Of a stretch of 64,000 nt of DNA, positions 1-37,837 are shown piece by piece. How positions within the stretch are numbered: the first letter of the stretch is position 1; the number at the start of each line of letters is the position of its first letter. The stretch is from contig NZ_JH992941.1 of the NCBI RefSeq assembly GCF_000315485.1, positions 372,001 to 436,000 on the forward strand, written 5' to 3'. Under the pieces are notes generated by a model, which worked only from the letters and a program-made list of their open reading frames with translations, did no database searches and was not told where the DNA came from. Position numbers and translations under genes: made by a program. The DNA is from Bacteroides oleiciplenus YIT 12058. GTDB lineage: Bacteria; Bacteroidota; Bacteroidia; Bacteroidales; Bacteroidaceae.

Positions 1-1926
1 GTTCACCTCCAACAGGTAGATACCCTTGTAGTCATAGTTAATACGTCCGAAGTAACCGGCTGATGCACGGGAAGTATGCGACCAGTTTATTTGTTGTCCA
101 TCCTGACTAGCCAAGTTCAGTTCGGGATACGCTTCGTCATACAGTCCTTTGCGGTATCCATATAGATAAGTGTAATCTACCTCTTCTGCATTGGCACCAA
201 CCATTACATTCAGATTGTGAGACTTAGCAAAAGTCTTGGCGTAGTTGGCATACACATTCAGCGTCCAGGTATTCTGCTTGGAATTATCCCGCCAGATTGC
301 CGAGTTGCTTTTAGTAACAATGTATTTAGGGGTAGGCAGTCCCGACCAGTCAACACCATAAACCGAGAAGTCTTCCGAACCGCTGTTCAAGTTCTGAATA
401 GCATAAGTAAAATCTGCATTCAGAGTTAATCCCTTAACGATCTCAGCTTTCAGGAATGCATTCATGCGAGTGAGGTCGGTAATTTCCCTACGGTCGGATG
501 CTTGCTTACGCATAGCCATAAGGCGGGTGTCATAACCATCGACGGTACCTGAAGGAATAAAGAAAGAACCCCAGCGCCAAAGAGTCTGATAGGTACTACT
601 GTAAACATCAGGACGCTCATAAGCTTTACGGGAGTAGTTGACACGTGCACCTACTTGCAACCAATCGTACAGGTTTGTGGTTACATTCACTGATACATTG
701 TACTTTTTCAGTTCATCGGGGCGTACTTTCATGATACCTTCTTTCTGGTCATAACCAAAAGAAAGATAGTAATTAGTCTTTCCTGAAGTTCCCTGAACAG
801 AAATATTGTGGCTCTGCGAAGGAGCAGCTTTGCTATAATAGATATCTTGAACATCCCAGTCGGCATAATAGTAAGGAGTTCCGTCGATTATTGCGTAATC
901 ACCAACATTACTATCACTCTGATAAGGTCTCATTTCGCCATATTTCAGTTTTCCACGGTTCTGCTGTGCCCATCTTTGAGCATAAGGCAACAGCTTATCG
1001 AAATACATACCAAAGAGTTCAACTTCATATTGGTTGGCGTTAGCTTTGGCTTCCAGTGCAGAAAGCAGCTGAGTAGGAACATCCGGGAAGTTGGGGAGGT
1101 AAGTTGCCTGATCCCAAGCGAAGTTATTGCTATAATTAATGGTAACCTTTTCCGTCGGTTTGGCACTCTTCGTGTTAATCAAGATAACACCAAAAGCGGC
1201 ACGTGTACCATAAATAGAGGTAGAAGCGGCATCTTTCAATACAGAAATACTTTCAATATCCTGTGTATTTAAGAAAGATATGTCATCCATAGGAACACCA
1301 TCCACCACAATCAACGGATTACTCTTTTCTGAGTTACTCAACGTACCAACACCACGAATACGCATCGAGGCACTCCCATTGATATCACCATTTTCCGTGG
1401 TGATGCTCAAACCGGGAACCGCACCTTGCAATGCTTTGGATACATCTTGTTGAGGGCGACCTGCCATAGTCTTATTCAAGTCTACAGTAGTAACTGCCCC
1501 TGTTAAGTTGGCTTTTTTCTGTACACCATAACCAACTACTACTACTTCATCTAATAATTCAGTATCCTCCTTTAAGATGATTTTCATAGTTGAGGTTGCT
1601 TTCACTTCTTGTGGTTGGTAACCGATGAATGATATTTTTAAAGTAGCGCCTAGTTTAACACTCAAAGTAAACTTACCGTCCAGGTTGGTTACAATTCCAT
1701 TAGTGGTTCCTTTTTCTACCACGCTAGCACCGATAATAGGCTCGCCTGCCACATCTACGACTAAACCTGTAACGGTGATAGACTGTAACTGCTCTGTTAC
1801 TTCCAAAACATTATCCGAGTCAGTTGGAGCAGCCATTACGTTACCGCTACTTAAGAACAGTGCACTTATTGCTACTGTTATGAGGAACTTATTGGTTAGT
1901 CCTCGTTTTTTGCGATCTTCATTCAT
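1..1926 (-). CDS. SusC/RagA-type TonB-dependent receptor, 5' part only (runs off the window start)
   Basis: The gene reads right to left from ATG at 1926, and 642 codons are open to the window edge, so the C-terminal half of the barrel is missing. A signal peptide is visible at residues 1-33 (basic start, then a hydrophobic stretch ending near VMAA). A carboxypeptidase-D regulatory-like domain follows at about 51-119 (GEPIIGASV, NLDGKFTL, FIGY). A TonB-box-like DEVVVVGYG lies at about 126-134, then the plug (VVDGVPMDD, DIESISVLKDAAS, YGTRAAFGVI) and barrel strands. There is no STN domain, so signalling to an ECF anti-sigma factor is not expected. Such receptors import glycans or similar ligands with a SusD partner, which here would lie outside the window. 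The leader at 1927-2123 is shared with two other receptors nearby, and this is the only copy where the leader runs directly into a full receptor. Confidence 0.95.
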   Translation of the reverse strand, partial: MNEDRKKRGLTNKFLITVAISALFLSSGNVMAAPTDSDNVLEVTEQLQSITVTGLVVDVAGEPIIGASVVEKGTTNGIVTNLDGKFTLSVKLGATLKISFIGYQPQEVKATSTMKIILKEDTELLDEVVVVGYGVQKKANLTGAVTTVDLNKTMAGRPQQDVSKALQGAVPGLSITTENGDINGSASMRIRGVGTLSNSEKSNPLIVVDGVPMDDISFLNTQDIESISVLKDAASTSIYGTRAAFGVILINTKSAKPTEKVTINYSNNFAWDQATYLPNFPDVPTQLLSALEAKANANQYEVELFGMYFDKLLPYAQRWAQQNRGKLKYGEMRPYQSDSNVGDYAIIDGTPYYYADWDVQDIYYSKAAPSQSHNISVQGTSGKTNYYLSFGYDQKEGIMKVRPDELKKYNVSVNVTTNLYDWLQVGARVNYSRKAYERPDVYSSTYQTLWRWGSFFIPSGTVDGYDTRLMAMRKQASDRREITDLTRMNAFLKAEIVKGLTLNADFTYAIQNLNSGSEDFSVYGVDWSGLPTPKYIVTKSNSAIWRDNSKQNTWTLNVYANYAKTFAKSHNLNVMVGANAEEVDYTYLYGYRKGLYDEAYPELNLASQDGQQINWSHTSRASAGYFGRINYDYKGIYLLEVN

Positions 1927-2123
1927 AAAAAGATTGATGATTTTGTTATTAATTAAATAGTTCTCTCTAAAAATTAGGGCAAGGATAGTCAGTATAGGAA
2001 TAGCTTTAGCTATTTCTTCTGTTAGACAAGTTTCTGTTCCATAGGCGTTTTCTCTATTTATAGGTTTAACTTATATTTTATCTCTCTTATTCTTTTTAAA
2101 CATTTACCAAGTTCCAAGAGAAC
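1927..2123 (-). promoter_or_regulatory. Conserved susC leader element, copy 1
   Basis: Read on the minus strand, this leader contains in order GTTCTCTTGGAAC, an AT-rich block with ATATAAGTTAAACC, the block CGCCTATGGAACAGAAAC, a small hairpin (AAATAGCT/AGCTATT), and AATCATCA just before ATGAATGAAGA. The same blocks in the same order occur at 9152-9345 and 10961-11158, with near-identical total lengths (197, 194 and 198 nt). The strong conservation of noncoding sequence points to a regulatory leader RNA or a set of regulator sites; which of these is not decided by the sequence. Confidence 0.75.
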
Positions 2124-2224
2124 ATTGCTGAGTCCTCATCGGTAATAATAGTATACATGTAAAATAGATTGGTATCTGAATTAATATTTATCGCAGAACA
2201 TTTATTTATTGCCTTTCACTTTTT

Positions 2225-2269
2225 ATCTATGCAATAATTAAATGACCATTAAATTAATAGTCATTTAAT
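2225..2269 (+). promoter_or_regulatory. Promoter-like box and dyad before the ATPase pseudogene
   Basis: TATCTATG (2225-2232) differs by one base from the Bacteroides -7 box TATCTTTG. It is followed by a perfect 10-bp inverted repeat, ATTAAATGAC (2237-2246) with GTCATTTAAT (2260-2269), and an AT-rich dyad in the loop. The right arm ends 37 bp before the ATG at 2306. The layout matches that of the intact relative at 60470 (a -7 box followed directly by a dyad). Confidence 0.45.
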
Positions 2270-2305
2270 AAAATAAGACTTAATCAGTAATTTTATAAAT
2301 AGATT

Positions 2306-2720
2306 ATGAGATTCTATAATTGAGAAGAAAAGACTAAGATTACTTCAGCAGACAGAAGAAAAGTCACTTTCATCTGCTTGTTTCACAGTCATCATGGGAC
2401 GTCGACGTGTAGGAAAGACCATTTTGTTACATAAATCTCTTGAAGGGAAACTCAAGATTTTGAATGTGTCAATCTATTTTCAACGATATAACGTACAATA
2501 TAGCGAATGGATATTTGAGAAGTATTTTCGGGAAAGGGTTGTGGAAACTATGAATATCACCCAAGTGGGTAATTGTTGGGCTACCAAAGGGGAAAATGAG
2601 ATTGATTTGATTGCACTGAATGATTTCGAGAAGGATGGTATTGTTGCAGAAGTGAAGCGTCATCCGAATAAAATCAGTCATACTGTCTTGGCAGAGAGGA
2701 TAGCAGATTTACTTAGATAG
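2306..2720 (+). pseudogene. Deleted and frameshifted AAA-ATPase with DUF234/PD-(D/E)XK-like C-terminus
   Basis: The remnant starts MRFYN at 2306, matching the start MKFYD of the intact relative at 60470. It then meets an in-frame TGA where the relative has Arg, and shifts frame after a run of AAGAAAAG. The new frame reads through a Walker A motif (GRRRVGKT, about 2397-2420). About 20 residues later it jumps to the C-terminal module: FEKYFRERV, then KGENEIDLIALND, then the nuclease-like EVK. The intact protein has about 270 residues between these parts, so most of the ATPase and the central region is deleted. The remnant also stops early, at LADLLR-like sequence. A 108-residue open frame from 2394 remains, but it has Walker A and no Walker B, so an ATPase function is not credible. 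Confidence 0.8.
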
Positions 2721-2800
2721 TTTGTAGAATATAATTTAATACAGAACGGATTTTTATTAGAAAATCTGATGAAGTAGCATTTAGTGAATTAATGGTTAAA

Positions 2801-2838
2801 AAGAAGGTTGGCTTGATATATGCAGCCAACCTTCTTTT
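2801..2838 (-). terminator. Hairpin terminator of the susC-susD-lipoprotein operon
   Basis: A perfect 13-bp stem, AAGAAGGTTGGCT (2801-2813) with its complement at 2824-2836, is flanked by A-runs on the left and T-runs on the right, so it can work in both directions. It lies about 90 bp past the stop of the lipoprotein gene and about 80 bp past the ATPase remnant. Confidence 0.8.
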
Positions 2839-2926
2839 CATATAATAGTTTTATTTATGGAGCAATCTCTTTACTCTTAAGAGATTATGAATCCTTTTAC
2901 AGGGTATTCAAAACTGCTCATGTTTC

Positions 2927-3871
2927 CTAATGCTCAGTATAACTGTATACTTTTACAACTGTTGCTTTGTTACGAAGACCGGCAAAATTATGAGTTGTAT
3001 ATCGGCCAGTAGTAATATTCCAGTAATCCGTATAAAGTTTGCCATTGACTTTCAACAACCAATCTACATCATCCATAACCGTTTCTCCAGGTACACCACC
3101 ATTTGCAGCCGTTACTACAATACGAAAATCTATGCGGGCAGCTCCCTGTGCAATGTACGTTGTTTTTTTAACAGGTACAGGCTGGAAACCCGTGCTTTCA
3201 CCAAAAGCAACTGGTGCACCCAAATTGAGCCATGCACTTTTGGTTGCATCCCCCGTTGCATCCCCCACATTCTTACCATCAGGAATGAGACCGGCATTTT
3301 TATCTGCATTTGTATAGAGCGGATGCAAAGTGTATTGATACTGATATTGCAACTTCATAGTAGTAGGATGTCCCTCGGCTTCATACATCAAGTTTATGAA
3401 GCGGATATGAGCAATGGTATCTGTATCGAAAGTAGCTTTGGATGGATCAAGCGGATAAGGAATATCAAAATCGCGTTCCAAAATAATCGGACTGGTATTA
3501 TAATCATGTATGATAACATTCTGTTTTCCCTTGATTAAAGTAACATCTTGGTCGAATACAAGTTTTAAAGCTGTACCTTGATACAACTTCAGATTGGCCT
3601 TACCTGGTTTGGCATAATAAAATCTGCCTGCACCTGGTATGGTATTATAGTATCCCAATACATTGGTACTATTGGTCAGTAATTTCCCATTTAACTCTAC
3701 TTTATAGATATTGTTTTCAGCCGACGTAGTGACCGGTGTATAATGACCTATTTGGAACTGAGCCATATCATCTCCGACCGGAATGGCGTCATAATCAACC
3801 TCCATCTTTTCACATGACCCCATAGAAAAGGCAGCTAAAAGAGCAATACTTATATACTTTATCTTTTTCAT
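2927..3871 (-). CDS. Surface lipoprotein encoded after SusD (SusE/SusF position)
   Basis: The product is about 314 residues. The frame is open further upstream to 3898, but ATG at 3871 is preferred. It has AAGGAATAAATGAT just upstream and begins a standard lipoprotein signal, MKKIKYISIALLAAFSMGSCEK, whose lipobox cysteine (MGSC) is near residue 20. The mature part is rich in beta strands and aromatic residues, with no catalytic motif that I recognise; it could be DUF4397-like. The gene is third in an operon after susC and susD, only 26 bp from the susD stop. That is the position of SusE/F-type ligand-binding lipoproteins, so a ligand-binding role at the cell surface is inferred from context alone. 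Confidence 0.75.
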   Translation of the reverse strand: MKKIKYISIALLAAFSMGSCEKMEVDYDAIPVGDDMAQFQIGHYTPVTTSAENNIYKVELNGKLLTNSTNVLGYYNTIPGAGRFYYAKPGKANLKLYQGTALKLVFDQDVTLIKGKQNVIIHDYNTSPIILERDFDIPYPLDPSKATFDTDTIAHIRFINLMYEAEGHPTTMKLQYQYQYTLHPLYTNADKNAGLIPDGKNVGDATGDATKSAWLNLGAPVAFGESTGFQPVPVKKTTYIAQGAARIDFRIVVTAANGGVPGETVMDDVDWLLKVNGKLYTDYWNITTGRYTTHNFAGLRNKATVVKVYSYTEH

Positions 3872-3897
3872 ATCATTTATTCCTTTTAAATAAAACA

Positions 3898-5817
3898 TTA
3901 GTTAGCAGGATATTCACCTGGGTAAGCAAACCAAGGGATAGAACACTGGTAATTGGGTGCTGTGCCGGATATCGGTTTCAGTTTTTCCAATGATTCGATG
4001 TTCCATGTGTACTCTGAATTATAACGTGGGCGAATGCGATAGCAGGGTGAACCATCATTGTAAAGATTGTATGCTGCATTTCGGAATTCAATGTCTCTGG
4101 CAGCACCTAAAAAGTAACCTTTGAATACCTTAGTATCATCTTCGTCACGTTTCACCTCGATTAAGCGTGTGGCATCCCAACCATTATTTTTAGATGGATA
4201 ATCGCCGGTGTACTGAATGTCATAGTGATATTTACGCAAATCAGTCCAAGCTTCTATGCCTCCCCAAGGATAAAGCGAAATAAACTTCTGTAGCATAATG
4301 TGTGAGAGAGTGAGATTCGCTTCCCCCAATCCTTCTACATAAGGACCAGCATAATATTCATTTGCCAAAGCATTGTATACACTCTTGGTGACTTTATCTC
4401 CGCCACTAATGACTCCCTTAGTACCCGGATAGAGTGGTGTAACCGTGAAATCCAGATCATTGCGTACCCCTTCTTTGAAAGCTATATAAGCAGCTCCCTT
4501 GTTGCCCTTCTTCCAATATGCTTCAGCAAGGCAGAGCTTGATTTCGGCGGCAGTCATCAATACGTAGGGCGCATCATCACGGAATAACCAGCGGCCAATA
4601 CCATCGTTAGGCAAAGACGTAGTAGAATTCTTTACTGTTGTGGTACGTCCATAAAGATGTGGAGTCGTTTTAATACCAGCAGGATTGGTACGAGAGGTAT
4701 TGTTTCTTCCTCCGTAATATTGATGTGCTTTTACACTGTCAGGATTATCAATGTACAGGTATTCAGGATCGCTATCGGTACTCAGTTTCACTGTTACACG
4801 GGGGTCGTAGTGTCCAGGTAAGTTAACCAGTGTATCTGCTATATATTGCTTTTCAAGCAGTTCATACTGGTAATATGGATTGGGAGGCGTTGTTTGCTTA
4901 ATGCGCTGTCCGTCTGTACCATATTTAGGTATAGTTCCTGTCATAATCTGTACCATATAATCGTGTTGGTAGTAGGTAGTACCCAAATTGCCGCGTTGTG
5001 TTCCCCAGAAATTGTTATAACCTGAGTAAGGTACACTTCCTGATCCGCCTTCCATTTCCACCATAGCATCATCTGCGGATGTTTGTAATGATTTGTTGGC
5101 AGCCTCAATTAATTCATCGGCATACTTTTCAAGGAAATCCGATTTGTTAGATAAAGATGCCAGATTACGTACAACTACACCATGAGCAAATTTAATCCAT
5201 TTAGAGATATCACCTTTATAAACCCAGTCATTGGCAGAGATCTTTGAACTATAAGAAGTTTTATCCTCCATTTCCAGGTATTCGATAGCTTTACGGGCCC
5301 ATCCACGGACAGCCTCATAAATATCAGCCTGAGAGTCATAATCAAAGCGCACACGTTCGTTATCAAAAGCCTGTTTAAGTGGCAATTCACCATAAACTTT
5401 GGTCAGCATGTCCCAGCTGTATGCTTTAATAGCATAACCAATACCGACGAGGTGCCAATGTTCTGCTGCAATGGCTTGATTGATTAAGTTTTCAAGATTC
5501 ATACCCTGATTCCAGTAAACCGTGCGCCAAATCAAGGCTCCCGTATCACTACTTTGGGGATAATAGTGATTACCATAGTTAGAACCATACGAACTCTGCG
5601 TAGTACTCCACATGGAAATCATGGGCAGAATAGCATATGTCAAATCCCACGTAACGTCTTGGTAAGTTTGTAGGATACCGGACAGATATAAATAATCTTC
5701 TACATAATCCGGAGAGTCAATATTCTTATTTACATCTAAATAATCGTCACAACTGACATTGAATAACATCAATAGAGATAGAAATGGAACAATTATATAT
5801 TTCTTCATATTCTTCAT
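3898..5817 (-). CDS. SusD/RagB-type outer-membrane lipoprotein
   Basis: The product has 639 residues. A lipoprotein signal is present with the lipobox cysteine in NVSCDDYLDVN at about residue 23. The CDDYLDVN sequence is typical of SusD proteins, as are the alpha-helical repeats (GYAIKAYSWDMLTKVYGELPL; AAEIKLCLAEAYWKKG) and the C-terminal AWTDLRKYHY with an arginine/tyrosine-rich tail. SusD proteins cap the SusC barrel and help to capture ligand. The gene starts 18 bp after the stop of the susC gene at 5836 and is followed at once by the lipoprotein gene. No glycoside hydrolase belongs to this operon, so the ligand cannot be named. Confidence 0.93.
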   Translation of the reverse strand: MKNMKKYIIVPFLSLLMLFNVSCDDYLDVNKNIDSPDYVEDYLYLSGILQTYQDVTWDLTYAILPMISMWSTTQSSYGSNYGNHYYPQSSDTGALIWRTVYWNQGMNLENLINQAIAAEHWHLVGIGYAIKAYSWDMLTKVYGELPLKQAFDNERVRFDYDSQADIYEAVRGWARKAIEYLEMEDKTSYSSKISANDWVYKGDISKWIKFAHGVVVRNLASLSNKSDFLEKYADELIEAANKSLQTSADDAMVEMEGGSGSVPYSGYNNFWGTQRGNLGTTYYQHDYMVQIMTGTIPKYGTDGQRIKQTTPPNPYYQYELLEKQYIADTLVNLPGHYDPRVTVKLSTDSDPEYLYIDNPDSVKAHQYYGGRNNTSRTNPAGIKTTPHLYGRTTTVKNSTTSLPNDGIGRWLFRDDAPYVLMTAAEIKLCLAEAYWKKGNKGAAYIAFKEGVRNDLDFTVTPLYPGTKGVISGGDKVTKSVYNALANEYYAGPYVEGLGEANLTLSHIMLQKFISLYPWGGIEAWTDLRKYHYDIQYTGDYPSKNNGWDATRLIEVKRDEDDTKVFKGYFLGAARDIEFRNAAYNLYNDGSPCYRIRPRYNSEYTWNIESLEKLKPISGTAPNYQCSIPWFAYPGEYPAN

Positions 5818-5835
5818 ATTAATAGGATTTATGAT

Positions 5836-8800
5836 TTAGAATTGTACACTCAAACCGCAAGTGATGCCACGTGGACTGGGAAGACTCCATGTATCATAAC
5901 CTTCACCACCTACACCACCAGCTGATGCAGACATCGTGTTACCTACAGCATCCAGACCATTGTAATTTGTAATAGTAAATAGATCATTACCAGAGATGTA
6001 TATCTGGGCATAGCTGATTAGACCGTTGGTCAACTTCTTAAGGAACTTTTCTGTAAACGTATACGATAGCCGTAGTTCTGACATGCGCAGATAGTTGACA
6101 TTGGCCTGAACCCAGTCACGTGCAGAGCCGGCATAAATCGTGCCGCCATAATTACCATATGTAATGGCAATATTATTGGGTGTCGGATTCTCTGAGTTTT
6201 CATTACCATCTTTCAATACACCTGGAATTATAACAGAGCCTTGCTCGCGTTTCTTCACTGAGTCCCAGTCTATACCGTTTTGCGCCAGATAGCGACCGGT
6301 TCCATTGATAACAGTTGATTTAAACTTACCCGAGAACATTGCATAAAGGCGCCATTGGCGTTTAAAAGTAACTTCCGTTGAAAAGCCGAAACGCAGTTTA
6401 GGTTCGCGGTCGCCTATATGTGTCCATTCTGAACTTACACGTGGAGCTCCTGTCGAAGGATCTATTAAAACTTCACCTTTGTCATTACGTTCAAAGTCAA
6501 GACCATGGATAGAAGTAACCGGATCACCTACCATCGTACCTAAACGAACACCGTTCGTATTTCCATTTGTATAGGTATCATAATATTCTGCCATCGGAAG
6601 GCTAATCGTTTTTGAGCCAGTATGTGAAAGGTTCACCCCTACATTCCAACGCCATCCATTGTAATTATGGATAATATCTCCATCAATATGTCCTTCCCAA
6701 CCCCAAGTTTTAAAGTCACCCAAATTACGGGTGTTCAGCACGAAGCCTGTGGCGTATGATAAGCGGAACCCTGTTACAATCTGATCTGTGCAGTTGGTGC
6801 GGAAATAGGTGAAATCCGCAACGATTCGGTCGTTCAGAAAGCGCCCTTCCGCTCCTATTTCATAGCTAGTCGTCATCTCAGGCTTTAGTTTTGAGTTCGG
6901 ACCTGTATATCCATATTTGTAGCCGCCACCTCTAAGCTCCGTAGCTTCCAGCTCTGGATTAATAGAAAGTGGAGATGTATCTTTGCCTACTTGTGCCACA
7001 GCACCTCTCAATTTCAGGTAGTTTACGATCTCACTTCCTTTAAATATAGGCAATTCAGTTAGAACGAATGATGCTTCCAGTGCCGGATAGAAATAACTCC
7101 GATTATTAGTAGGTAATGTTGAAGCCCAGTCATTACGTCCACGTAAAGTGAGGAATGCCATGTTGTCCCAACCAAATTCAGCTTGTGCGGAAATAGCCTG
7201 AATACGGCGAATGGTAGAACGCTTTTTAGAAGTGACAGTAGTTGGAGCCACGTTGTTGATAGAGGCCATATCCCACACAATATAGTTTTTACCATAAGAA
7301 CTCAAACGTGTTATTTTGTTTTCTACCTGATGATAGCCAACTTGTGCAGTTACACTCAGCTTTCCATCAAAGAATTTGTCGTTCCAACCTGCAAGCACAT
7401 TCATAGAAAGGTCTGAGAAGTTTTCTTTAACCAAATTATATACTCCACCACGACCAGGTTGGATATCATAGTTATTTTTAGCCCACAACGGATGTTCAGA
7501 TGTCTCGAATGTCTGCGTGCCTATATCCCAGCCATACTGTGCCCGCAGGAAGAAGTGAGAATTCGGTTGAATAATACCGGTCACATTACCTATAATTCGG
7601 TCGGATTCATCATAATATTTATTTTTATTCATCAAAAACAACGGATTATACATATCACCGTCCACATATGGATATGGATAGCGCATGTGTACCAGGTCTG
7701 GGTCAAGATAATTACTCATATCATCAACAAGCGGCCAGCGAAGTGCATAGTAAAGCGGCCCACTAGTACCTTTAGGCATCTTATTGTTCTGGGTGGATGC
7801 GTATTGCATGGATGATTCAAAACGCATCCATTTAGTAATATCTGCCTTACCGGACAAAGAGAAGTTGCTACGTTGGTAATCAGTATTCTTAATCGTACCA
7901 GTTTGATCGGTAAATGAAGCGGAAGCACGCATAGTTAACTTTTCAGTACCGGTTTCCACTGATACATTGTGTACTTGGGTGAATCCTGTTTGCAGAATTT
8001 GATCAAGGTTATTGTAGAGTTTGGTACCTTCAGGATAAAGTCCACCAAAACGGGCAGTATTAAAATAGTTAGTTACACCATAATTGCCATTAGAATATTT
8101 GGTTTGTGGGTCGGGCAGTCCGTAAGATGTATCCCAACGGAAACGGTTACTATATGAAACCTTACCCTTGCCTGCCGTACCTTTCTTTGTCGTAATAATA
8201 ATGGCTCCATTAGAAGCATTCGAGCCATACAGTGCTGCGGCGGCTGCTCCTTTCAATACGGTGATACTTTCGATATCTTCAGGGTTGAAGTCATTACCGC
8301 GTGACGAGAAATCCAACGTACGGCTACTATAAACATCCTCTACGGCCATACCACTACTTGCTGAAAAGGAGGAGTTGTTCATTGGGATACCATCGACAAC
8401 ATAAAGTGGCTGGTTGCTGCCGGACAGTGAAGTGATACTGCGTAGTGTTACTTGTGTTGATGCTCCCGGAGCGCCAGAACTGGATACAACGTTCATTCCG
8501 GATACGCGCCCTTGCAACGCTGTGATGAAATTATCTCGTCCCGACTCTGCAATTTCATCTGCAGTCACTTTCTGTACCGATGAACCGATACCGCGTTGAA
8601 CACGCTTCAAACCGAACTCCGTAACGACGACTTCGTTCAGCATATTGGCATCTTCCTCCATTTGCACATTAATTTGTGTCTTGGTCACTTTTACAGATTG
8701 TGGTTTGCAACCTATATATGAGAACTGGAGCGTAGCTCCTTGTTTAGCAGTGATTGTATAGTTTCCGTCAGCGTTAGTTATTACGCCTTGGCTAGTTCCT

Positions 8801-9006
8801 AGAATTTGAACACTTGCCCCAGCTAGAGGCTCATCAGCAGAATCAGTAACTTTACCTTTAACAGTTATCTGTTTCTGTTGTTGTATTACTTCAGTAGCGG
8901 GTGAAGTTGGTTTGTCCGTAATGTCGTTAGGACTGGCATTTATGCTGATAACAGGTACTATTAGCATAGCAGCTATGCCCATAGAGATTTCCTTAAATCT
9001 ATTCAT
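5836..9006 (-). CDS. SusC/RagA-type TonB-dependent receptor
   Basis: The product is a full-length receptor of 1056 residues. It has a signal peptide (about 1-24) and a linker rich in Thr/Pro/Gln. The regulatory-like domain is at about 48-118 (DEPLAGASV, NADGNYTI, YIGCK) and a TonB-box-like NEVVVTEFG at about 128. The plug follows (YVVDGIPMNNSS, DIESITVLKGAAAAALYGS), then a long barrel ending in GITCGLSVQF with a terminal aromatic residue. It is the first gene of the operon with susD and the lipoprotein. Its start codon lies 146 nt downstream of the shared leader (9152-9345), and a tiny open frame beginning MNEN lies between them (9113-9151). The N-terminus differs from the MNEDRKKR type of the receptor at 1926. 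Confidence 0.96.
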   Translation of the reverse strand: MNRFKEISMGIAAMLIVPVISINASPNDITDKPTSPATEVIQQQKQITVKGKVTDSADEPLAGASVQILGTSQGVITNADGNYTITAKQGATLQFSYIGCKPQSVKVTKTQINVQMEEDANMLNEVVVTEFGLKRVQRGIGSSVQKVTADEIAESGRDNFITALQGRVSGMNVVSSSGAPGASTQVTLRSITSLSGSNQPLYVVDGIPMNNSSFSASSGMAVEDVYSSRTLDFSSRGNDFNPEDIESITVLKGAAAAALYGSNASNGAIIITTKKGTAGKGKVSYSNRFRWDTSYGLPDPQTKYSNGNYGVTNYFNTARFGGLYPEGTKLYNNLDQILQTGFTQVHNVSVETGTEKLTMRASASFTDQTGTIKNTDYQRSNFSLSGKADITKWMRFESSMQYASTQNNKMPKGTSGPLYYALRWPLVDDMSNYLDPDLVHMRYPYPYVDGDMYNPLFLMNKNKYYDESDRIIGNVTGIIQPNSHFFLRAQYGWDIGTQTFETSEHPLWAKNNYDIQPGRGGVYNLVKENFSDLSMNVLAGWNDKFFDGKLSVTAQVGYHQVENKITRLSSYGKNYIVWDMASINNVAPTTVTSKKRSTIRRIQAISAQAEFGWDNMAFLTLRGRNDWASTLPTNNRSYFYPALEASFVLTELPIFKGSEIVNYLKLRGAVAQVGKDTSPLSINPELEATELRGGGYKYGYTGPNSKLKPEMTTSYEIGAEGRFLNDRIVADFTYFRTNCTDQIVTGFRLSYATGFVLNTRNLGDFKTWGWEGHIDGDIIHNYNGWRWNVGVNLSHTGSKTISLPMAEYYDTYTNGNTNGVRLGTMVGDPVTSIHGLDFERNDKGEVLIDPSTGAPRVSSEWTHIGDREPKLRFGFSTEVTFKRQWRLYAMFSGKFKSTVINGTGRYLAQNGIDWDSVKKREQGSVIIPGVLKDGNENSENPTPNNIAITYGNYGGTIYAGSARDWVQANVNYLRMSELRLSYTFTEKFLKKLTNGLISYAQIYISGNDLFTITNYNGLDAVGNTMSASAGGVGGEGYDTWSLPSPRGITCGLSVQF

Positions 9007-9112
9007 AAGAGTCTCATTGTTTAAATTATTTTTGTTTGGATAAAGTTATAAAACTATTGCATTCCCTTGTTTTATTGAAGAATGCATTAGTCATGACGGT
9101 TTGAGTACTTTA

Positions 9113-9151
9113 TTATGTACTATTTTTCTTGTTCGCGTGATTTTCATTCAT
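9113..9151 (-). pseudogene. Vestigial susC start (12-codon open frame) after leader copy 2
   Basis: Directly after the conserved leader and its AAATCATCA block, ATG at 9151 opens MNENHANKKNST and then stops (TAA). The first residues and spacing match MNEDRKKR of the receptor at 1926. This may be the residue of an older receptor start, or a small upstream reading frame kept for regulation. The real receptor starts at 9006. Confidence 0.5.
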
Positions 9152-9345
9152 AATAATGATGATTTAAATTATTCGTTGAAATAGCTTTCAACATTCAGAA
9201 TGGTAAGGTAATAAATAAAAAATAGTCGGTGAGGCTATTTCTTTTAGAGGATAACTTTCTGTTCCATAGGCGTTTTCTCAATTTACAGGTTTAACTTATA
9301 TATTATCTCTACTTCAAATCTATCAACGGTTCCAAGAGGACTTGG
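9152..9345 (-). promoter_or_regulatory. Conserved susC leader element, copy 2
   Basis: The minus strand shows CCAAGTCCTCTTGGAACC (5-bp stem CCAAG/CTTGG with a 4-base loop), then ATATAAGTTAAACCTG, then GAGAAAACGCCTATGGAACAG, then a hairpin AAATAG/CTATTT, then AAATCATCA before the ATG at 9151. Order and spacing agree with the copies at 1927-2123 and 10961-11158. Confidence 0.72.
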
Positions 9346-9395
9346 TGTGGATATGATTAAAAAATAGCTATACTGTAGCCTTGATTTATCTAAAA

Positions 9396-9494
9396 CTTAC
9401 CTGGGCTGCACTTGCTCCGTAGCTTCTCCGTACATTCTCCACTTAGAAGTACCTCTGAGTGGAGAATGTACGGAGCAAGTATAGCCCGAGTAAG
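9396..9494. repeat. Long imperfect palindromic intergenic element, copy A
   Basis: The arms run CTTACCTGGGCT...ACTTGCTCCGTA...TACATTCTCCACT on the left and the complementary AGTGGAGAATGTACGGAGC...AGCCCGAGTAAG on the right. A ~14-nt loop lies near 9444-9457, and the left arm carries an extra CTCCGTA-like insertion. The blocks ACCTGGG, TGCACTTGCTCCGTA and CTCCGTAC recur in the same order at 51491-51601, so this is a repeated element and not a chance hairpin. It sits between two divergent transcription units. Confidence 0.7.
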
Positions 9495-9662
9495 AATCGG
9501 GTAGAAATCAGATGATGAGAGAGGGTCTTTTTTCGAGTAGTAAGAACGAACTCTCAATGTAGCTCGTTTTATACGAAAAAAAAACTTTTATCCTTCCTGA
9601 AGGCATTTCTTGAGGCAATTATCCAAGGCTACCCCCTTTCCCCTAGATGACTACACCATATG

Positions 9663-9726
9663 GACGTGATAGCTACACCCTTTATAGCAAAAGGTGTAGC
9701 CTCAGATAATGGATGTTTATCACGTC
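9663..9726. repeat. Nested inverted repeats upstream of the sugar kinase
   Basis: An outer perfect 9-bp pair, GACGTGATA (9663-9671) with TATCACGTC (9718-9726), encloses an inner perfect 8-bp pair, GCTACACC (9672-9679) with GGTGTAGC (9693-9700). Together they could fold into one long stem with a side bulge. No coding sequence is present between 9346 and 9870; apart from this element, copy A and the promoter at 9838, I see nothing further there. Confidence 0.5.
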
Positions 9727-9837
9727 GGAATACAAGTGGCATTTGTCAGTATCCAACTCTGCAACTAGCTCAACCCAGGAAAGGAGCTATAAAATGAAGT
9801 TTTGGGAGTTTTTATCTTGATATATTAAAAAAAACTA

Positions 9838-9845
9838 TATATTTG
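9838..9845 (+). promoter_or_regulatory. Promoter -7 box for the sugar kinase
   Basis: TATATTTG fits the Bacteroides -7 consensus TAnnTTTG and lies 25 bp before the kinase ATG, giving a short untranslated leader. A clear TTTG at the usual -33 distance is missing; a TTGATATATTAAA stretch lies just upstream instead. Confidence 0.5.
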
Positions 9846-9870
9846 TATCCAATTCTAAATCTAGCTGCGT

Positions 9871-10719
9871 ATGAAACTGATTGCAGAAAGTGGTTCGACA
9901 AGAACTGAATGGGCCTTGGTTGAAGATAATCATCTGATACAACGTGTTTTTACTGAGGGCCTTAATCCTTTCTTCCAAACCCGAAGAGAGATCAGCCGAA
10001 GTGTGCGTTTAGGTTTACCCGAAACTTTTTTCAAAAGAAAACTGGAACAAGTATATTATTATGGAGCCGGTTGTACTTCCTATGAGAAAAAGAATGTATT
10101 GGGTGCCTCATTAGTAGCACAGTTTAAAACCCCAATCCAAGTAGAGAGTGATTTACTTGCGGCTGCTCGTGGCCTATTTAAATGTGAAGCTGGAATTGCC
10201 TGTATTTTAGGTACCGGATCTAATTCTTGTTTTTACAACGGAAAGATTATAGTAAAAAATGTCAGAGCAGGTGGGTACATATTAGGGGATGAGGGTAGTG
10301 GTGCTGTATTAGGTAAACATTTCCTCTCAGATGTGTTGAAAGGTTTAGCTCCCAAAGAGGTGATGGCTGACTTTTTTGAGAAATTCCGTATTAGCCCCAA
10401 TGAAGTGATGGAGTCAGTATATAACCGCCCATTTCCTAATCGTTTCCTCTCCACCATTTCTTACTTCTTAGCAGATTATACGGATGATGATTATGTATAT
10501 GAATTGATAACGACCAATTTACGCAACTTCTTCACTAGAAATGTGTGCCAATACGATTATATGAGTTATCCTATCCGCTTCGTTGGTTCATTGGCTTACA
10601 GCTATGCTACGGTTCTTAGAGAGGTAGCTAGTGAATTTGGCATTGAACTGGATGTTATCGAAGAAACTCCGATGAGTGGTTTAATTGACTTCCACTCACT
10701 AAATATTGAAGAACCTTAA
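9871..10719 (+). CDS. BadF/BadG-type sugar kinase (N-acetylglucosamine/MurNAc kinase-like), first paralogue
   Basis: The product has 282 residues of the ASKHA kinase fold. Shared landmarks with the paralogue at 37838 are NPFFQ, YYYGAGC, DLLAAARGL, GIACILGTGSNSC (phosphate-2 and adenosine-type loop), LGDEGSGAVLGK and PFPNRFLS. The first phosphate motif reads AESGSTRTEW where the paralogue has ADSGSTKTDW, so the Mg-binding aspartate is replaced by glutamate. No signal peptide is present, so the protein is cytoplasmic. The gene stands alone between two receptor operons and has its own -7 box. Phosphorylation of an amino sugar is the expected reaction, but the D-to-E change leaves activity open; it could also be a sugar sensor. 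Confidence 0.8.
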   Translation: MKLIAESGSTRTEWALVEDNHLIQRVFTEGLNPFFQTRREISRSVRLGLPETFFKRKLEQVYYYGAGCTSYEKKNVLGASLVAQFKTPIQVESDLLAAARGLFKCEAGIACILGTGSNSCFYNGKIIVKNVRAGGYILGDEGSGAVLGKHFLSDVLKGLAPKEVMADFFEKFRISPNEVMESVYNRPFPNRFLSTISYFLADYTDDDYVYELITTNLRNFFTRNVCQYDYMSYPIRFVGSLAYSYATVLREVASEFGIELDVIEETPMSGLIDFHSLNIEEP

Positions 10720-10829
10720 TATTTGTATATAAAGCATATCAAAAGTAGCACATTCTCTTTTGAATAGCAAATATATAAATATAAAGTTAAATAAATGCAA
10801 AGGTATGTTCTTGATATTAAATTATAATA

Positions 10830-10837
10830 TATCTTTG
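10830..10837 (+). promoter_or_regulatory. Promoter -7 box upstream of leader copy 3 and the susC-susD pair
   Basis: TATCTTTG matches TAnnTTTG. It is preceded by TTGATATTAAA, which also occurs before the -7 box at 19312. If used, transcription would begin near 10845 and give a very long (>500 nt) leader that includes the conserved element and the vestigial start. Confidence 0.4.
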
Positions 10838-10960
10838 CTAAGAAGAAACGAAGAAATAGCGTTTCATCACCTTTGTTAATAACGAGTTTATCTCTTAAAA
10901 CAACTAACTAAAGTATAACAGTCTTTAGTGTATTTTAATTTTTGGTTAATGATCAATTTA

Positions 10961-11158
10961 CCAAGTTCTCTTGGAACTTAGCTAGCATACAATTAAAGTA
11001 AGAGAAATAAAATATAAGTTAAACTTAAAATAAAAAAGAGCCTATGGAACAGAAACTTACCTGACAGGAGAAATAGTCTCAGCTATTTCTAACTGCTTAT
11101 CCTTACTTCCTATTTCTGAGAAGACTATTTAAATTAACAATAAAATCATCAACTATTT
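10961..11158 (+). promoter_or_regulatory. Conserved susC leader element, copy 3
   Basis: The plus strand shows CCAAGTTCTCTTGGAAC (CCAAG/CTTGG stem), then AAAATATAAGTTAAAC, then GAGCCTATGGAACAGAAAC, then a hairpin with AAATAG/CTATTT arms, then AAATCATCAACTATTT before ATGAATGAAGA. It matches copy 1 almost block for block, although the two sit more than 8 kb apart and face opposite ways. Confidence 0.75.
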
Positions 11159-11263
11159 ATGAATGAAGACCGCAGAAGACGAGCATTAAAAAACAATAAG
11201 CTCCTCACCACACTAACAATTAGTGTACTGTTCCTAGATATTGGTAATGTGATAGCTGTGTAA
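11159..11263 (+). pseudogene. Vestigial susC N-terminus (34 codons) after leader copy 3
   Basis: ATG at 11159 opens MNEDRRRRALKNNKLLTTL followed by TISVLFLDIGNVIAV and a TAA stop. It aligns with the signal peptide of the receptor at 1926 (MNEDRKKRGLTNKFLITV, then AISALFLSSGNVMAA). The receptor that follows (11389) has an unrelated signal peptide, so this looks like a broken receptor start upstream of a different receptor. Alternatively it is a translated leader peptide. About 125 bp of noncoding, gene-like sequence separate its stop from the next start. Confidence 0.65.
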
Positions 11264-11388
11264 ACAGCCTCTGACTCTGCTTTGAGTGACAACTAAACTG
11301 TTGCAATTCAAAATGAAACATTGCAAAGTGAACCACTCAATAGTATGATGTAATTCTAGACTATTAACCATTATTGTTTATTAAATCT

Positions 11389-14300
11389 ATGTTAATGAAA
11401 AAACTTTTTATTCTATCAGTAACCGGCCTAATGCTTATGAGTGGCGGTTACTTTCCTGGAATGAGTGTAAGTGCACAAAATACCACTTCGTCAAGTACAC
11501 AAAATTCAAAAAGGATTACTGGAGTTGTCACTGATACTCAAGGCGAACCTATTATCGGAGCAACTGTTCTTGTGCAAGGTACGGGTATTGGTACAGCAAC
11601 CGATATTGACGGAAAATTCTCTCTCGACATTCCATCCAACGGGAAAACTCTTATCGTGTCCTTTATAGGATTTGATGCACAAGAAATTCCCGTTACGAAT
11701 AATACAACCTATAAAATACAATTAAGCGGCACAGACTACGCTCTTGATGAAGTAGTAGTTACTGCATTAGGAATGAAACGTGAAAAGAAAGCACTCGGTT
11801 ATTCGGTGCAAGATGTAAAAGGCGATGCCCTTATTGAAAATCGTACTGCAAACATTGCTACATCTTTGAATGGTAAGATTGCCGGTATGAATATTTCTTC
11901 AACTTCTATTCCTGGTGGTTCAAACCGTATTGTCATTCGTGGTAACAACTCTATATCTGGTAATAATATGCCTTTGGTTGTGGTAGATGGAGTTCCGTTT
12001 GATAACTCACAAGGCGTTGACGACGTAAATACAAACTCTTGGGGAGCAGGATACTCGGATACCGGTGACGGATTATCCATGCTGAATCCGGACGATGTTG
12101 AATCAATTTCTGTATTGAAAGGTCCTTCGGCTACAGCTCTTTACGGTTCACGTGGCGGTAACGGCGTAATCTTGGTTACCACGAAGCAGGGACAAGGAGG
12201 AAAGACTAAGGTTTCTTACAATAGTAATCTGACTTTCGAAAATGTAATGATTCAACCGGAATTCCAGAATGAATATGGACAAGGTACCGACGGTGCTTAT
12301 GTTGCCACCGCCCGTAACTCCTGGGGACCTAAAATGGGTACCGTTGTCACCGACTGGACAGGTCAGACTCGCCCTATGGAAGCTAAAAACAATGACTTCT
12401 CTGATTTCATGGATACAGGTACATCCTGGAGTAATTCTCTTGACATAACAAGTTCTGCTGGCAAGATGAACTATCGCGTAGGTATGTCAAATACGACACG
12501 TAAAGGCGTTATTCCAAATAATAAGTTGAATAAAACAAACTTCTCTGTTCGTGCGGGTGGCGAAATCATTAAAAACCTGACTCTTGATGCTAAATTGAAT
12601 TATACTTACCAGAAAGGTGAAGGTCGTCCCGAGTTCTCGGCATCTGGCTTCAATCCTATATTTGCTCTCATCTATACTCCGCGTAGCATCAATCTGCATG
12701 AAATGAAAGATGTCTTTGATAAGGATGGGAAAATAATCGACTGGTATCCCAGCATGCTTACAGTGGTTAATAATCCGTATGCACTAACCTCTCTTACCGG
12801 TAATAAGGACGTTACCAATCGTATCAATGGTTTCGCATCGCTGTCTTATGAGGTTAATAGTTGGCTGAAAGCCATGATCCGCTTCGGTGGTGACACTTAT
12901 GGCAAGAAAACCGAAAAATGGATACGCCATGATTTGATTTCGAGTGCAGGCTACAAAGATGGTCGTTTCTCAACCGGCCAATACAACATGGCTGAATACA
13001 ATGCCGACTTCCTGGTTACAGCTCAGAAAGAAAATATCGCAAGTTCCAAGTTTTCTGGAATGCTCTCCGTTGGTGGTAACTTAATGAACCGTCAATATAA
13101 TAGCTTTTATGCCACAGCCGAAGGCTTGAATATCCCCGAACTTTACACCATCCAGAACGGACAGTCCAAAACGACATCCACTTATAAATCAGAAAAGGAA
13201 GTTCAATCTCTCTACGCATTGGGACAATTGTCATGGGACAACTATCTGTTCTTTGATGTAACTGTACGCAACGATTGGTCTTCCACATTGCCGAAAGACA
13301 ACCGTTCTTTCTTCTATCCCTCCTTTTCTTTAGGCTGGGTAGTAACCGACATGTTGACCAAATTTAAAGTGAATGTGCCCAGTTGGATTTCATTCGCTAA
13401 ACTGCGTGCTTCCTATGCAGAAGCAGGAAATGACACCGATCCATATCAGCTATTATCTGTATTATCTACAGTTTCGAACATGGCAGGCGGACAGATGGGA
13501 GTAGCCGAACCTTCTACCAAAGCAAACGCCAACCTTAAACCGGAAATTATCAAATCAACAGAGTTCGGTGCTGACATCCGGTTCCTTGATAACCGCTTAG
13601 GATTCGACGTTACGTATTATAACAAACGTGCATATAACCAAATTATATCTATGCCGTCATCTATTACCTCAGGATATAGCGCTAAGTATATCAATGCCGG
13701 ACGTGTTGACAACTGGGGATGGGAACTTCAGATGAACGCTACACCTGTTCGCACACGCGACTGGAACTGGAATCTTTGGGTTAACTTTGCCAAGAACTCT
13801 TCTGAAGTAGTAGAACTTTACGAAGGAGTAGAATCCATTACATTAGCCCGTCCTATGGGACAAAACTGCTATGTGATGGCCAAGGTAGGCGAACCTTATG
13901 GACAGATATATACGAATGGTTACAAATATGATAACAAAGGGAACCGCCTTGTGGGCGATGATGGTAAGTACATAGTAGATCCTACCCTCCGTGTTTCCGG
14001 CAATATGAATCCGGACTGGACTGCAGGTATCGGTTCGTCATTGAGATGGAAAAACTTCTCTTTCGGCTTCCTGATTGATGTACGTTATGGTGGCGATGTA
14101 TATCTGCAATCCATGATGCGTCTGCAATCCAACGGTCAGACAAAAGAAACCGTTGCCGGACGTGAAGAATATTATTCAACAGGTAAAGGATTAATTTCTC
14201 AGGGTGTGAATGTGAACACAGGAGCTGCTAATACTGTAGAACTTAGTCCTACCGCTTATTGGGGACAATTCTATGGAAATATCGGAAACTACATTTACGA

Positions 14301-14544
14301 CGCAACCAATGTACGCCTTCGCGAACTGAACTTCTCCTGGACACTGCCGGACAGATGGTTCAACAAGACAATAATCAGCGGTATTAAAGTAAGTGCTGTA
14401 GCCAACAACGTATGCTTCTTGTACAATAACCTTCCGGGATTCGATCCTGAATGTACATACTCTACCGGTAACGGACAGGGTGTTGAAACGGCAGCTTTGC
14501 CTTCTACCCGTTCATTTGGCTTCAATCTTAACGTTACATTCTAA
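11389..14544 (+). CDS. SusC/RagA-type TonB-dependent receptor
   Basis: The product has about 1051 residues. The frame opens at a TTG at 11374, but ATG at 11389 (or ATG at 11395, MKKLFILSV) fits a signal peptide better; that peptide ends at SVSAQ near residue 30. A carboxypeptidase-regulatory-like domain follows at about 42-112 (GEPIIGATV, DIDGKFSL, FIGFD), then TonB-box-like DEVVVTALGMKRE, plug motifs (VVVDGVPFDNSQ, DDVESISVLKGPSATALYGSRGGNGV) and a barrel ending SFGFNLNVTF. It pairs with the susD gene 15 bp downstream. The pair lies just upstream of the glycosidase and NamZ genes, so a peptidoglycan-derived ligand is possible, but this is inferred only from position. Confidence 0.95.
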   Translation: MLMKKLFILSVTGLMLMSGGYFPGMSVSAQNTTSSSTQNSKRITGVVTDTQGEPIIGATVLVQGTGIGTATDIDGKFSLDIPSNGKTLIVSFIGFDAQEIPVTNNTTYKIQLSGTDYALDEVVVTALGMKREKKALGYSVQDVKGDALIENRTANIATSLNGKIAGMNISSTSIPGGSNRIVIRGNNSISGNNMPLVVVDGVPFDNSQGVDDVNTNSWGAGYSDTGDGLSMLNPDDVESISVLKGPSATALYGSRGGNGVILVTTKQGQGGKTKVSYNSNLTFENVMIQPEFQNEYGQGTDGAYVATARNSWGPKMGTVVTDWTGQTRPMEAKNNDFSDFMDTGTSWSNSLDITSSAGKMNYRVGMSNTTRKGVIPNNKLNKTNFSVRAGGEIIKNLTLDAKLNYTYQKGEGRPEFSASGFNPIFALIYTPRSINLHEMKDVFDKDGKIIDWYPSMLTVVNNPYALTSLTGNKDVTNRINGFASLSYEVNSWLKAMIRFGGDTYGKKTEKWIRHDLISSAGYKDGRFSTGQYNMAEYNADFLVTAQKENIASSKFSGMLSVGGNLMNRQYNSFYATAEGLNIPELYTIQNGQSKTTSTYKSEKEVQSLYALGQLSWDNYLFFDVTVRNDWSSTLPKDNRSFFYPSFSLGWVVTDMLTKFKVNVPSWISFAKLRASYAEAGNDTDPYQLLSVLSTVSNMAGGQMGVAEPSTKANANLKPEIIKSTEFGADIRFLDNRLGFDVTYYNKRAYNQIISMPSSITSGYSAKYINAGRVDNWGWELQMNATPVRTRDWNWNLWVNFAKNSSEVVELYEGVESITLARPMGQNCYVMAKVGEPYGQIYTNGYKYDNKGNRLVGDDGKYIVDPTLRVSGNMNPDWTAGIGSSLRWKNFSFGFLIDVRYGGDVYLQSMMRLQSNGQTKETVAGREEYYSTGKGLISQGVNVNTGAANTVELSPTAYWGQFYGNIGNYIYDATNVRLRELNFSWTLPDRWFNKTIISGIKVSAVANNVCFLYNNLPGFDPECTYSTGNGQGVETAALPSTRSFGFNLNVTF

Positions 14545-14559
14545 AATAAAGGAAAGAAT

Positions 14560-16212
14560 ATGAATAAGTTATTTAAATCTATTATAAGCATTGTCGGTCT
14601 TTCAATGACCCTCATGGGCTGTGTCAGCGATTTTGATGATATGAATACCGATCCCAACAATCCTACTCCGGGTTCAGTAGACCCCAAATTCCAATTGATA
14701 TTCATACAGGGGCGTGGTATTCCTTATGCTAACCAGTGGCAACAGATAGATCAGTTGATGATCAGCACTTTCTGTGAATACTCGGCTAACGATGGGCTTT
14801 CAGCTTCCGACTATAACATAGACTCGCGCTATGTGGACAATATATGGGAGTTGACCTATACTGTACTGACCAATGCCAACTCTCTGATTCGCGCCAATGA
14901 GAGTAATCCGGTTCATACCAATGTCGTTCAAATGGCACGTATCTGGAAAGCTTATGCCATGCTGCGTTTAACCAACTGTATGGGTGATGTGCCTTACTCT
15001 GAAGCTGCCAACGACATCGATCAGCCTAAGTATGATACTCAAAAAGATATCTACTATGCTATATTTGACGAATTGAAAGACGCTGTAAGCAAATTGGATG
15101 AGTCAGCCGCTAATAATGTGGGCTCTTATGATCTCATTTATGGCGGTGACGCTGCCAAATGGAAGAAGTTTGCCAACTCTATCCGGTTGCGCATGGCTGT
15201 CCGCATCTCTGATGTAGATGCCGCTAAGGCAAAAACGGAAGCTGCCGCCGCCATCTCGGCAGGTGTATTCAGCAGTGACGCTGATGCTGCTTATCTGACG
15301 CAAGGTGAAGATAAATTTGCCCAAAACCCTATTTATTATCATAAAGGTTCTTCCGTACTGCACATGTCAACAGCTTATAAGCGTCTCGTGCAAGGCATAG
15401 GCGGACTGGCATGGCCGACTGCGGCCGACCGTGAGGCTAACAAAAACATTACCGAAAATATTCTTGCCGCCAAAAATGCCCCAGCTATTGTTGACCCTCG
15501 TGCTCCTATTCATTTTGAACCTGCAGGTATCATTGAAGCTACTGCAACGGCAAGTATGAACGGCAATTGGGATGGTACAGACCCGGGACATGTAGCTTCC
15601 GGTGTAGGCGCTGCTATGGATAACGGTCAGTTTGTAAGCGATTTCTCTAAAATCGGGCCTTGGTATTATGAAACTATTGATAGAAAGTATCCTTTGCTTA
15701 AGTATAGCGAACTATGCTTCCTGAAGGCTATTGCTATTGAACTGGGACTTGTTAGCGGTGATGCAAAAACCGATTATGAAGCAGGCGTACGTTCAAGCAT
15801 GACAGAGCTCGGTGTTCCGGAAAGTAATATTACAAACTATCTGGCTTCAACTTCTCCGAACTATTATGGAACCACAGCCAAGTATGACGATATTACAGGA
15901 AGTAATAATACAGCCTTGGATAAGATTCTTACCCAGAAATATATCGCTCAGTTCCAAGAATGTTCCTTTGAGACTTGGGCCGACCATCGTCAGTTCCACA
16001 AACCTACGCTCATGCCATTCGCAAGTGTAAGTTCAAGTGTATTCAACATGAATCCTTCCGACCAAGCTAATAATACGCCAAACGCTTATATCAAGCGTAT
16101 ATATTATCCTTCTTCAGAGTATACAGTGAATGCAACTAACGTGAAAGAAGCTGAAAGTCGCATGGGTGGAAATAACAGCATACAAAACAATGTATGGTGG
16201 GATGTTAACTAA
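14560..16212 (+). CDS. SusD-like lipoprotein (SusD-like_2 / RagB type)
   Basis: The product has 550 residues with a lipoprotein signal whose cysteine is in MTLMGCVSDFDDMNTDP near residue 21. The DDMNTDPNNPT sequence, the helix ARIWKAYAMLRLTNCMGDVPYSEA, and the later KYSELCFLKAIAIELGL and KYIAQFQECSFETWADHRQF are typical of the SusD-like_2 branch that partners SusC receptors. The C-terminus has the usual KRIYYPSSEY and NNVWWDVN. It is the second gene of a two-gene operon that ends in a strong hairpin terminator. No partner enzyme is included in the operon. Confidence 0.93.
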   Translation: MNKLFKSIISIVGLSMTLMGCVSDFDDMNTDPNNPTPGSVDPKFQLIFIQGRGIPYANQWQQIDQLMISTFCEYSANDGLSASDYNIDSRYVDNIWELTYTVLTNANSLIRANESNPVHTNVVQMARIWKAYAMLRLTNCMGDVPYSEAANDIDQPKYDTQKDIYYAIFDELKDAVSKLDESAANNVGSYDLIYGGDAAKWKKFANSIRLRMAVRISDVDAAKAKTEAAAAISAGVFSSDADAAYLTQGEDKFAQNPIYYHKGSSVLHMSTAYKRLVQGIGGLAWPTAADREANKNITENILAAKNAPAIVDPRAPIHFEPAGIIEATATASMNGNWDGTDPGHVASGVGAAMDNGQFVSDFSKIGPWYYETIDRKYPLLKYSELCFLKAIAIELGLVSGDAKTDYEAGVRSSMTELGVPESNITNYLASTSPNYYGTTAKYDDITGSNNTALDKILTQKYIAQFQECSFETWADHRQFHKPTLMPFASVSSSVFNMNPSDQANNTPNAYIKRIYYPSSEYTVNATNVKEAESRMGGNNSIQNNVWWDVN

Positions 16213-37788: not shown

Positions 37789-37837
37789 GAAGGAGTAGCG
37801 GAGTTACCAACATAGTAAACAATTAAAATTGAACGAT

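Follow-up and report, generated by a model that had tools for sequence, protein, structure and literature searches.

The three leaders described here are very probably the landing sites of a DNA-inversion (phase-variation) switch that would choose between SusC transporters. They lie within a 64,000-nt stretch of the genome of Bacteroides oleiciplenus YIT 12058 (the window) and had drawn attention as a ~195-nt sequence shared by three susC genes. The evidence comes from sequence comparison among related loci, and consists of the structure of the site, its concerted spacer, both kinds of junction, a -7 box present on one side only, and a covarying hairpin.

In the mechanism that we propose, the short palindromes at the 5' ends of the leaders would be recombined by a trans-acting enzyme, most likely of the tyrosine recombinase class, and either the segment that carries a kinase gene (site B with site C) or the larger A-to-C segment would be inverted. 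An outward promoter on the kinase 3' side would turn the adjoining operon ON and leave the others OFF. The transcript would begin with a long 5' UTR that spans the site and continues into the recipient's own leader. That leader would be kept before every recipient because each operon, once ON, relies on a common initiation region and hairpin. From these comparisons we infer the recombinase and its class, the transcription start, and reversibility in this strain. An invertible promoter segment bounded by these leaders, which the original prediction missed, would explain why the leaders stand in both orientations, why common blocks precede receptors that differ, and why the spacer is concerted.

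Three leaders made of two parts

The original prediction of three leaders with common ordered blocks, in both orientations, was borne out (Table 1). In a BLAST search of the 7.09-Mb genome with leader C (query, window 10950-11175), leader A matched with 79% identity (E 2.2e-39) and leader B with 71% (E 1.6e-15), and no further convincing copy was found. The match ranking next (E 2e-4) falls at the beginning of a gene that looks unrelated, and seems to be due to chance.

Each leader is composed of a first part of ~21 bp, which is palindromic, and a remaining ~150 nt of 5' UTR; the shared blocks hence have two causes, a DNA site and an RNA leader, and not one. The block CCAAG..CTTGGAAC, previously listed on its own, does exist, but as a piece of the 21-bp palindrome CCAAGTTC-TCTTG-GAACTTGG. 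At the other end, all three leaders finish at ATGAATGAA, and their similarity extends slightly beyond the start codon. An intact susC opens at the leader's own ATGAATGAA in A only. That of leader C opens a 34-codon ORF, apparently the decayed remnant of a SusC signal peptide, and that of leader B a 12-codon ORF, with a distinct susC downstream of each. The receptors A, B and C sort into three sequence groups (types I, III and II, respectively), and alternative susC/susD operons, a hallmark of shufflons, are present at the sites. The kinase gene between leaders B and C encodes a protein matching PDB entries 8oqk (E 6.3e-140) and 8ow7, both named N-acetylglucosamine kinase; its matches to Pfam BcrAD_BadFG and NCBIfam NagK_SO3507 are each under their own cut-off.

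Table 1. Features of the locus in window coordinates. Leader lengths are those of the original prediction, whose places and strands were confirmed.
Feature	Position	Strand	Remarks
susC A	1-1926	-	type I; runs off the window; start is leader A's own ATG
Leader A	1927-2123	-	197 nt
Leader A, 5' UTR part	1927-2108	-	
Hairpin of leader A	1999-2014	-	AATAGC-TAAA-GCTATT
Site A	2107-2127	-	ATGTTC-TCTTG-GAACTT; core 2109-2125; one arm change
Segment that an A-C inversion would cover	2126-10962		
susD-like gene with susC B	3898-5817		
susC B	5836-9006	-	type III; start 9006
12-codon ORF after leader B	9113-9151	-	MNENHANKKNST
Leader B	9152-9345	-	194 nt
Leader B, 5' UTR part	9152-9326	-	
Hairpin of leader B	9220-9240	-	bulged, AAATAG..CTATTT; missed by the unbulged-stem score
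Site B	9325-9346	-	spacer TCTTG, degenerate arms (3 mismatches); core 9327-9343
Proposed invertible segment B-C	9344-10962	none	1.6 kb; kinase gene and outward promoter
-7 box before kinase gene	9838-9845	+	TATATTTG
N-acetylglucosamine kinase (NagK)	9871-10719	+	by similarity
-7 box facing leader C	10830-10837	+	TATCTTTG
Leader C	10961-11158	+	198 nt
Site C	10961-10981	+	CCAAGTTC-TCTTG-GAACTTAG; 17-bp core 10963-10979; proposed recombination site
Leader C, 5' UTR part	10982-11158	+	
Hairpin of leader C	11069-11090	+	AGAAATAGT-CTCA-GCTATTTCT
34-codon ORF after leader C	11159-11263	+	MNEDRRRRALKNNK...
susC C	11374-14544	+	type II; start 11374 or 11395
susD-like gene with susC C	14560-16212		

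A palindrome with a genome-specific spacer

Alignment of the leader 5' ends revealed an 8-5-8 palindrome, CCAAGTTC-N5-GAACTTGG, of ~21 bp, and this first block of the leader is likely a site-specific DNA recombination site. Site B is inverted relative to site C, and site A is inverted relative to C and direct relative to B. Owing to its degenerate arms, site B may be weak or dead, and exact GTTCTCTTGGAAC occurs in the genome at sites A and C only; for these reasons A and C are the best-supported partners here, and the inversion between them may be the main event.

The 5-bp spacer is identical within the locus in 15 out of 15 loci with at least two readable sites, and differs between species, with nine distinct spacers (or nine among 11 loci if the TCTTG clade is counted once). 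This count omits L058, where N-masking hides two of the three sites, L059, whose second leader lacks a site, L086, single-site loci, and G-loci identical to named ones. Shuffling the spacer labels over the 15 loci gave a mean of 2.4 concordant loci and a maximum of 9/15, in a procedure that, like the Fisher tests, treats loci as independent, the TCTTG loci being one clade and L045 and L062 closely related. Among copies fetched later, the spacer agrees in G152 (both sites) and in the third site of G032 C12; no usable pair of sites came from those in G075, G034, G078, G049 and G035, nor from the outlying copies of G032 and of G079. Arm variants, as for instance GGACTT or GTACTT, are often common to the sites of one locus as well. 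In B. clarus and B. gallinarum (L061 and L063), the leaders at corresponding positions of the two loci are 93% and 86% alike, yet the spacers are CTCGT vs CCCAT.

The state of the sites follows the presence of a partner. The 3' site is near-intact in 15/15 loci with an inverted partner on the kinase 5' side, against 4/12 of those with a 3' leader and enough sequence in which no partner was found, a comparison that is partly circular since a decayed 3' core makes a partner harder to find. It omits L058, L059 (300 nt only) and L099 (contig starting inside the kinase). Weighing against the switch are the four near-intact sites for which no partner turned up, the degenerate arms of site B, and the later copies from which no usable pair was obtained. 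The R1 searches used strict filters and rough E-values.

Rearranged junctions in related genomes

Related genomes join the two sides of the locus in the alternative combination, with the junction inside the palindrome; both orientations are seen between related genomes, not within one strain. As an example, in a MAG contig (L099) the kinase 3' region with its promoter box is 92% identical to window C over 200 nt, and downstream of the site come leader A and susC A, 96% identical to window A over 347 nt. The off-combinations reach 76-80%, and the switch point falls inside GTTCTCTTGGAACTT. Likewise, L040 (G087) is 98% identical to the sequence upstream of L038 site A and then, past the site, 100% identical to L038 leader C over 350 nt, switching inside GTTCTCTTGGAACTTAGC. 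For the pair flanking the kinase, L049 compared with L061 is 93% identical to the 3' side upstream and 90% to the 5'-side leader downstream, and the orientation signal between L044 and L062 is modest (84 vs 77%, 83 vs 82%). A susC of the MNGEHKRSS type is found on the kinase 3' side in L061 and L063, and on the 5' side in L060.

Assembly breaks also fall on the sites. Two contigs of G014 terminate exactly at the two sites, one of G152 exactly at a site, and two of G087 at 1 and 11 bp from a site; in these three assemblies no close kinase ortholog was found, just 44-46% paralogs. Because a 17-bp repeat by itself should not break an assembly, the contig ends and the missing kinase contig are suggestive of a mixed orientation in which the 1.6-kb contig was dropped. 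Missing kinase contigs may partly be due to other assembly trouble, since contigs also break elsewhere nearby: the partner contig of G152 starts 90 bp before the site, and in G043 the contigs are interrupted within the kinase gene as well as 78 bp past site B.

A one-sided promoter box

A TAnnTTTG box, the -7 consensus of B. fragilis (PMC6927303), is found within 260 nt upstream of 28/29 leaders on the kinase 3' side and of 1/15 on the 5' side (boxes called by consensus, one masked locus omitted). No -33 box at a fixed spacing was recognised upstream of the leaders. In the window, the putative promoter lies inside the predicted invertible segment and faces one of its ends. Since the putative outward promoter sits on the kinase 3' side, facing leader C, operon C would be ON and operons A and B OFF in this assembly.

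The segment holds other elements. Between nagK and the promoter (window 10747-10805), the minus strand bears three more TAnnTTTG boxes, which point back across nagK. A large imperfect inverted repeat (window 9396-9494), with inner 25-nt arms 92% complementary and outer 34-nt arms 82% complementary, lies between site B and the kinase promoter; it may act as a strong terminator that shields the OFF side, or may be what is left of a mobile element.

A Pfam search of the genome gave no tyrosine-recombinase match near the locus, which counts against the switch; the genome holds 40 phage-integrase matches, two of them on this contig and both more than 1 Mb away. Among the matches listed for six relatives there was no recombinase candidate either.

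The RNA leader and its hairpin

The original prediction had proposed searching Bacteroides genomes with a covariance model of the leader. A model of the 5' UTR part found it in 45/158 Bacteroides genomes, some at E near 0.001, and a single-query search had matches in 31/149 genomes of the genus. From a family sample of 121 genomes in 30 genera, seven matched, all of them Bacteroides, with no match in the 29 other genera sampled. Within the stretch examined, 23 of 43 loci fetched via nagK have a leader match and 20 have none, among them Mediterranea and Prevotellaceae MAGs, some short contigs, and some members of Bacteroides itself (e.g. B. salyersiae). Where the leader is present, it mostly occurs once, on the kinase 3' side, or twice, as divergent copies that bracket the kinase.

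The blocks AACCTTTAAAT, GCCTATGR and AAATCATCA..ATGAATGAAGA, 3' of the site, are kept even where the palindrome is lost. For the alignment, 75 hits were reduced to 51 distinct ones (four N-rich copies and duplicates removed) and to 48 aligned leaders (three near-copies taken out); removing five divergent loci left 43 rows, from which 32 were hand-chosen (alignment A3). A hairpin 3' of GCCTATGR covaries, with changes on both sides at 9/9 pairs in the 32-row and 43-row alignments, and 74.6% of cells pair in the latter. Covariation was 0.294 with 43 rows, vs 0.221 ± 0.017 in shuffled alignments (0/500) and at most 0.162 when the structure was slid, and 0.367 with 32 rows, vs 0.279 ± 0.022 shuffled and at most 0.155 slid; these scores are uncorrected for relatedness, and the structure derives from the window C row alone. 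The 11 rows dropped for A3 included weak hairpins (e.g. L050:2464, L049:2430, L060:11122), and the result held on all 43. Taken singly, 19 of the 48 leaders have a hairpin that beats its own shuffles at 0.05, and the mean folding z is -1.3, vs +0.3 for the stretch preceding the hairpin. RNAalifold on the full 48-leader alignment (A2) returned no supported structure and missed the covarying hairpin; of the six weak pairs that it placed close to the start codon, not one changes on both sides. The ~150-nt part of the leader probably works at the RNA level, where the hairpin may contribute.

A common control element had thus been rightly supposed, and the element is not duplicated DNA confined to three loci without compensatory changes, the outcome named in advance as refuting it: it recurs across 45/158 genomes and its hairpin covaries. 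Of the structured mRNA leader that had been suggested, one covarying hairpin (9/9 pairs) stands, and the first block is instead a likely DNA recombination site.

From these data one could suspect that the leaders are no more than a structured mRNA element (an attenuator, a riboswitch, or a protein or sRNA target) that was carried along when susC genes duplicated, in which case the first block would be an RNA hairpin or a regulator site. The persistence of the downstream part in loci that have lost the palindrome and the covariation of the hairpin fit such an element, as does the pairing of FopS sRNAs with susC start regions reported for B. thetaiotaomicron (PMC11697453), a likeness in control at the susC start region that our locus would share. 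It leaves the genome-specific spacer, the swapped junctions, the contig ends and the one-sided -7 box unexplained, however, and no Rfam family reached its gathering score in the window except for a tRNA elsewhere in it. We consider it improbable as a full account. Still less probable, and by our estimate very unlikely, is that duplication was followed by gene conversion, or by homologous recombination of the ~200-bp repeats, and that no dedicated site exists: the leaders are indeed 71-79% alike in the genome, and the susC genes behind them are unlike one another, but the concerted sequence spans no more than about 15-17 bp, its flanks diverging according to position, and the palindrome pattern also forms inverted pairs at other B. 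fragilis loci. As for a transcription-factor operator common to susC operons, we give it hardly any credence, despite the near-perfect dyad in a fixed place before co-located operons: an operator should have one spacer or a random one, not a spacer identical within and different between genomes (which also disfavours the regulator site formerly suggested at the palindrome), and would not mark rearrangement junctions.

The same sites elsewhere and known inversion systems

DNA inversion at dedicated sites is known from B. fragilis, whose SusC/SusD shufflons are worked by the tyrosine recombinase Tsr0667 (PMC4747536, PMC11852207), described as inverting three SusC/SusD clusters and nine other regions (PMC4747536). 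Here too, alternative susC/susD operons would be brought to a promoter by inversion between inverted repeats. Unlike in the Tsr0667 shufflons as those reports present them, the DNA that moves would include the gene of a kinase, and each of the three susC operons is preceded by a ~150-nt leader in which a hairpin covaries.

A B. fragilis genome (G123) contains 23 chromosomal AGTTC-N5-GRACTT sites, which form eight inverted same-spacer pairs within 20 kb and no direct same-spacer pair. In B. fragilis Q1F2, AAGTTC-N5-GAACTT occurs among susC/susD genes, beside ECF sigma and FecR genes (the G123 site group L178), and also before other susC-like genes. Four G123 pairs are ~280-440 bp apart: two (L180, L182) precede TonB-dependent receptor genes by Pfam, L183 looks to do so by eye, and L181 does not. 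The locus under study is itself one of the eight, with nagK flanked by the sites; the MNEDRKK susC/susD operon lies to one side, and the genes of NamZ and of a sodium:solute symporter lie to the other. At this locus (L177, 2381-7312) the nagK segment would switch between the two. This distribution fits the inversions reported for Tsr0667 in PMC4747536, and by analogy these sites may be linked to that enzyme.

In the B. oleiciplenus genome, AAGTTC-N5-GAACTT occurs in seven places, one being site C. At L110 (6390-6924; C2:465.4-465.9 kb), two inverted sites of this type with spacer TTCTT, one with two mismatches, are ~518 bp apart upstream of a gene that is lipoprotein-like by eye, and are probably another invertible promoter. 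An inverted same-spacer pair at L108 (5296/13198; C2:1067295/1075197) was set aside, as it involves by eye a ribulokinase-like gene and a duplicated piece; L109, L111 and L112 have no partner site within the 14 kb examined.

Two other systems resemble the locus in part. In the intergenic shufflon of region EE (B. fragilis NCTC 9343), operons are brought behind a promoter by way of inverted repeats close to the susC starts; in that description the repeats overlap the start codon, with a separate invertible promoter upstream of the region (PMC5729914), whereas our site precedes the ATG by ~180 nt and the moving segment would itself contain the promoter. The large TonB/SusD inversions (PVRs) of B. 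intestinalis APC919/174 likewise invert nutrient-uptake clusters in the same genus, and by that account are often flanked by an integrase gene (PMC8375218), in contrast to our locus, with no Pfam integrase match nearby. In the full-text literature, where few subscription papers are covered, no paper was recognised by title or abstract as describing this locus.

A proposed switch for nutrient importers

The window additionally carries NamZ, a sodium/solute symporter and a second kinase of the NagK family (37829-38689, 45% identical to NagK), which is possibly a MurNAc kinase. Together, these genes suggest a locus for the salvage of peptidoglycan or amino-sugar products, which the importers would then serve. 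A broader reading, which we put forward as speculative and rather doubtful, is a two-layer switch for such salvage, conserved across many Bacteroides. In the first layer, a nagK-plus-promoter cassette that inverts stochastically would pick one importer (in B. fragilis, the susC/susD operon vs the NamZ/symporter operon); in the second, the replicated hairpin leader would put each choice under a common RNA-level control, perhaps by a sugar phosphate, a protein or an sRNA. Leader and site would then make up a portable expression cassette with interchangeable susC coding regions behind it.

The proposal gives a hitherto unexplained leader repeat a testable meaning, that of a genetic switch for nutrient importers, at a locus common to many gut Bacteroides, and would add a case in which the flipped DNA carries the gene of a metabolic enzyme. 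A site spacer that is equal within and unequal between genomes would also provide a signature by which such switches may be found in assembled genomes without reads.
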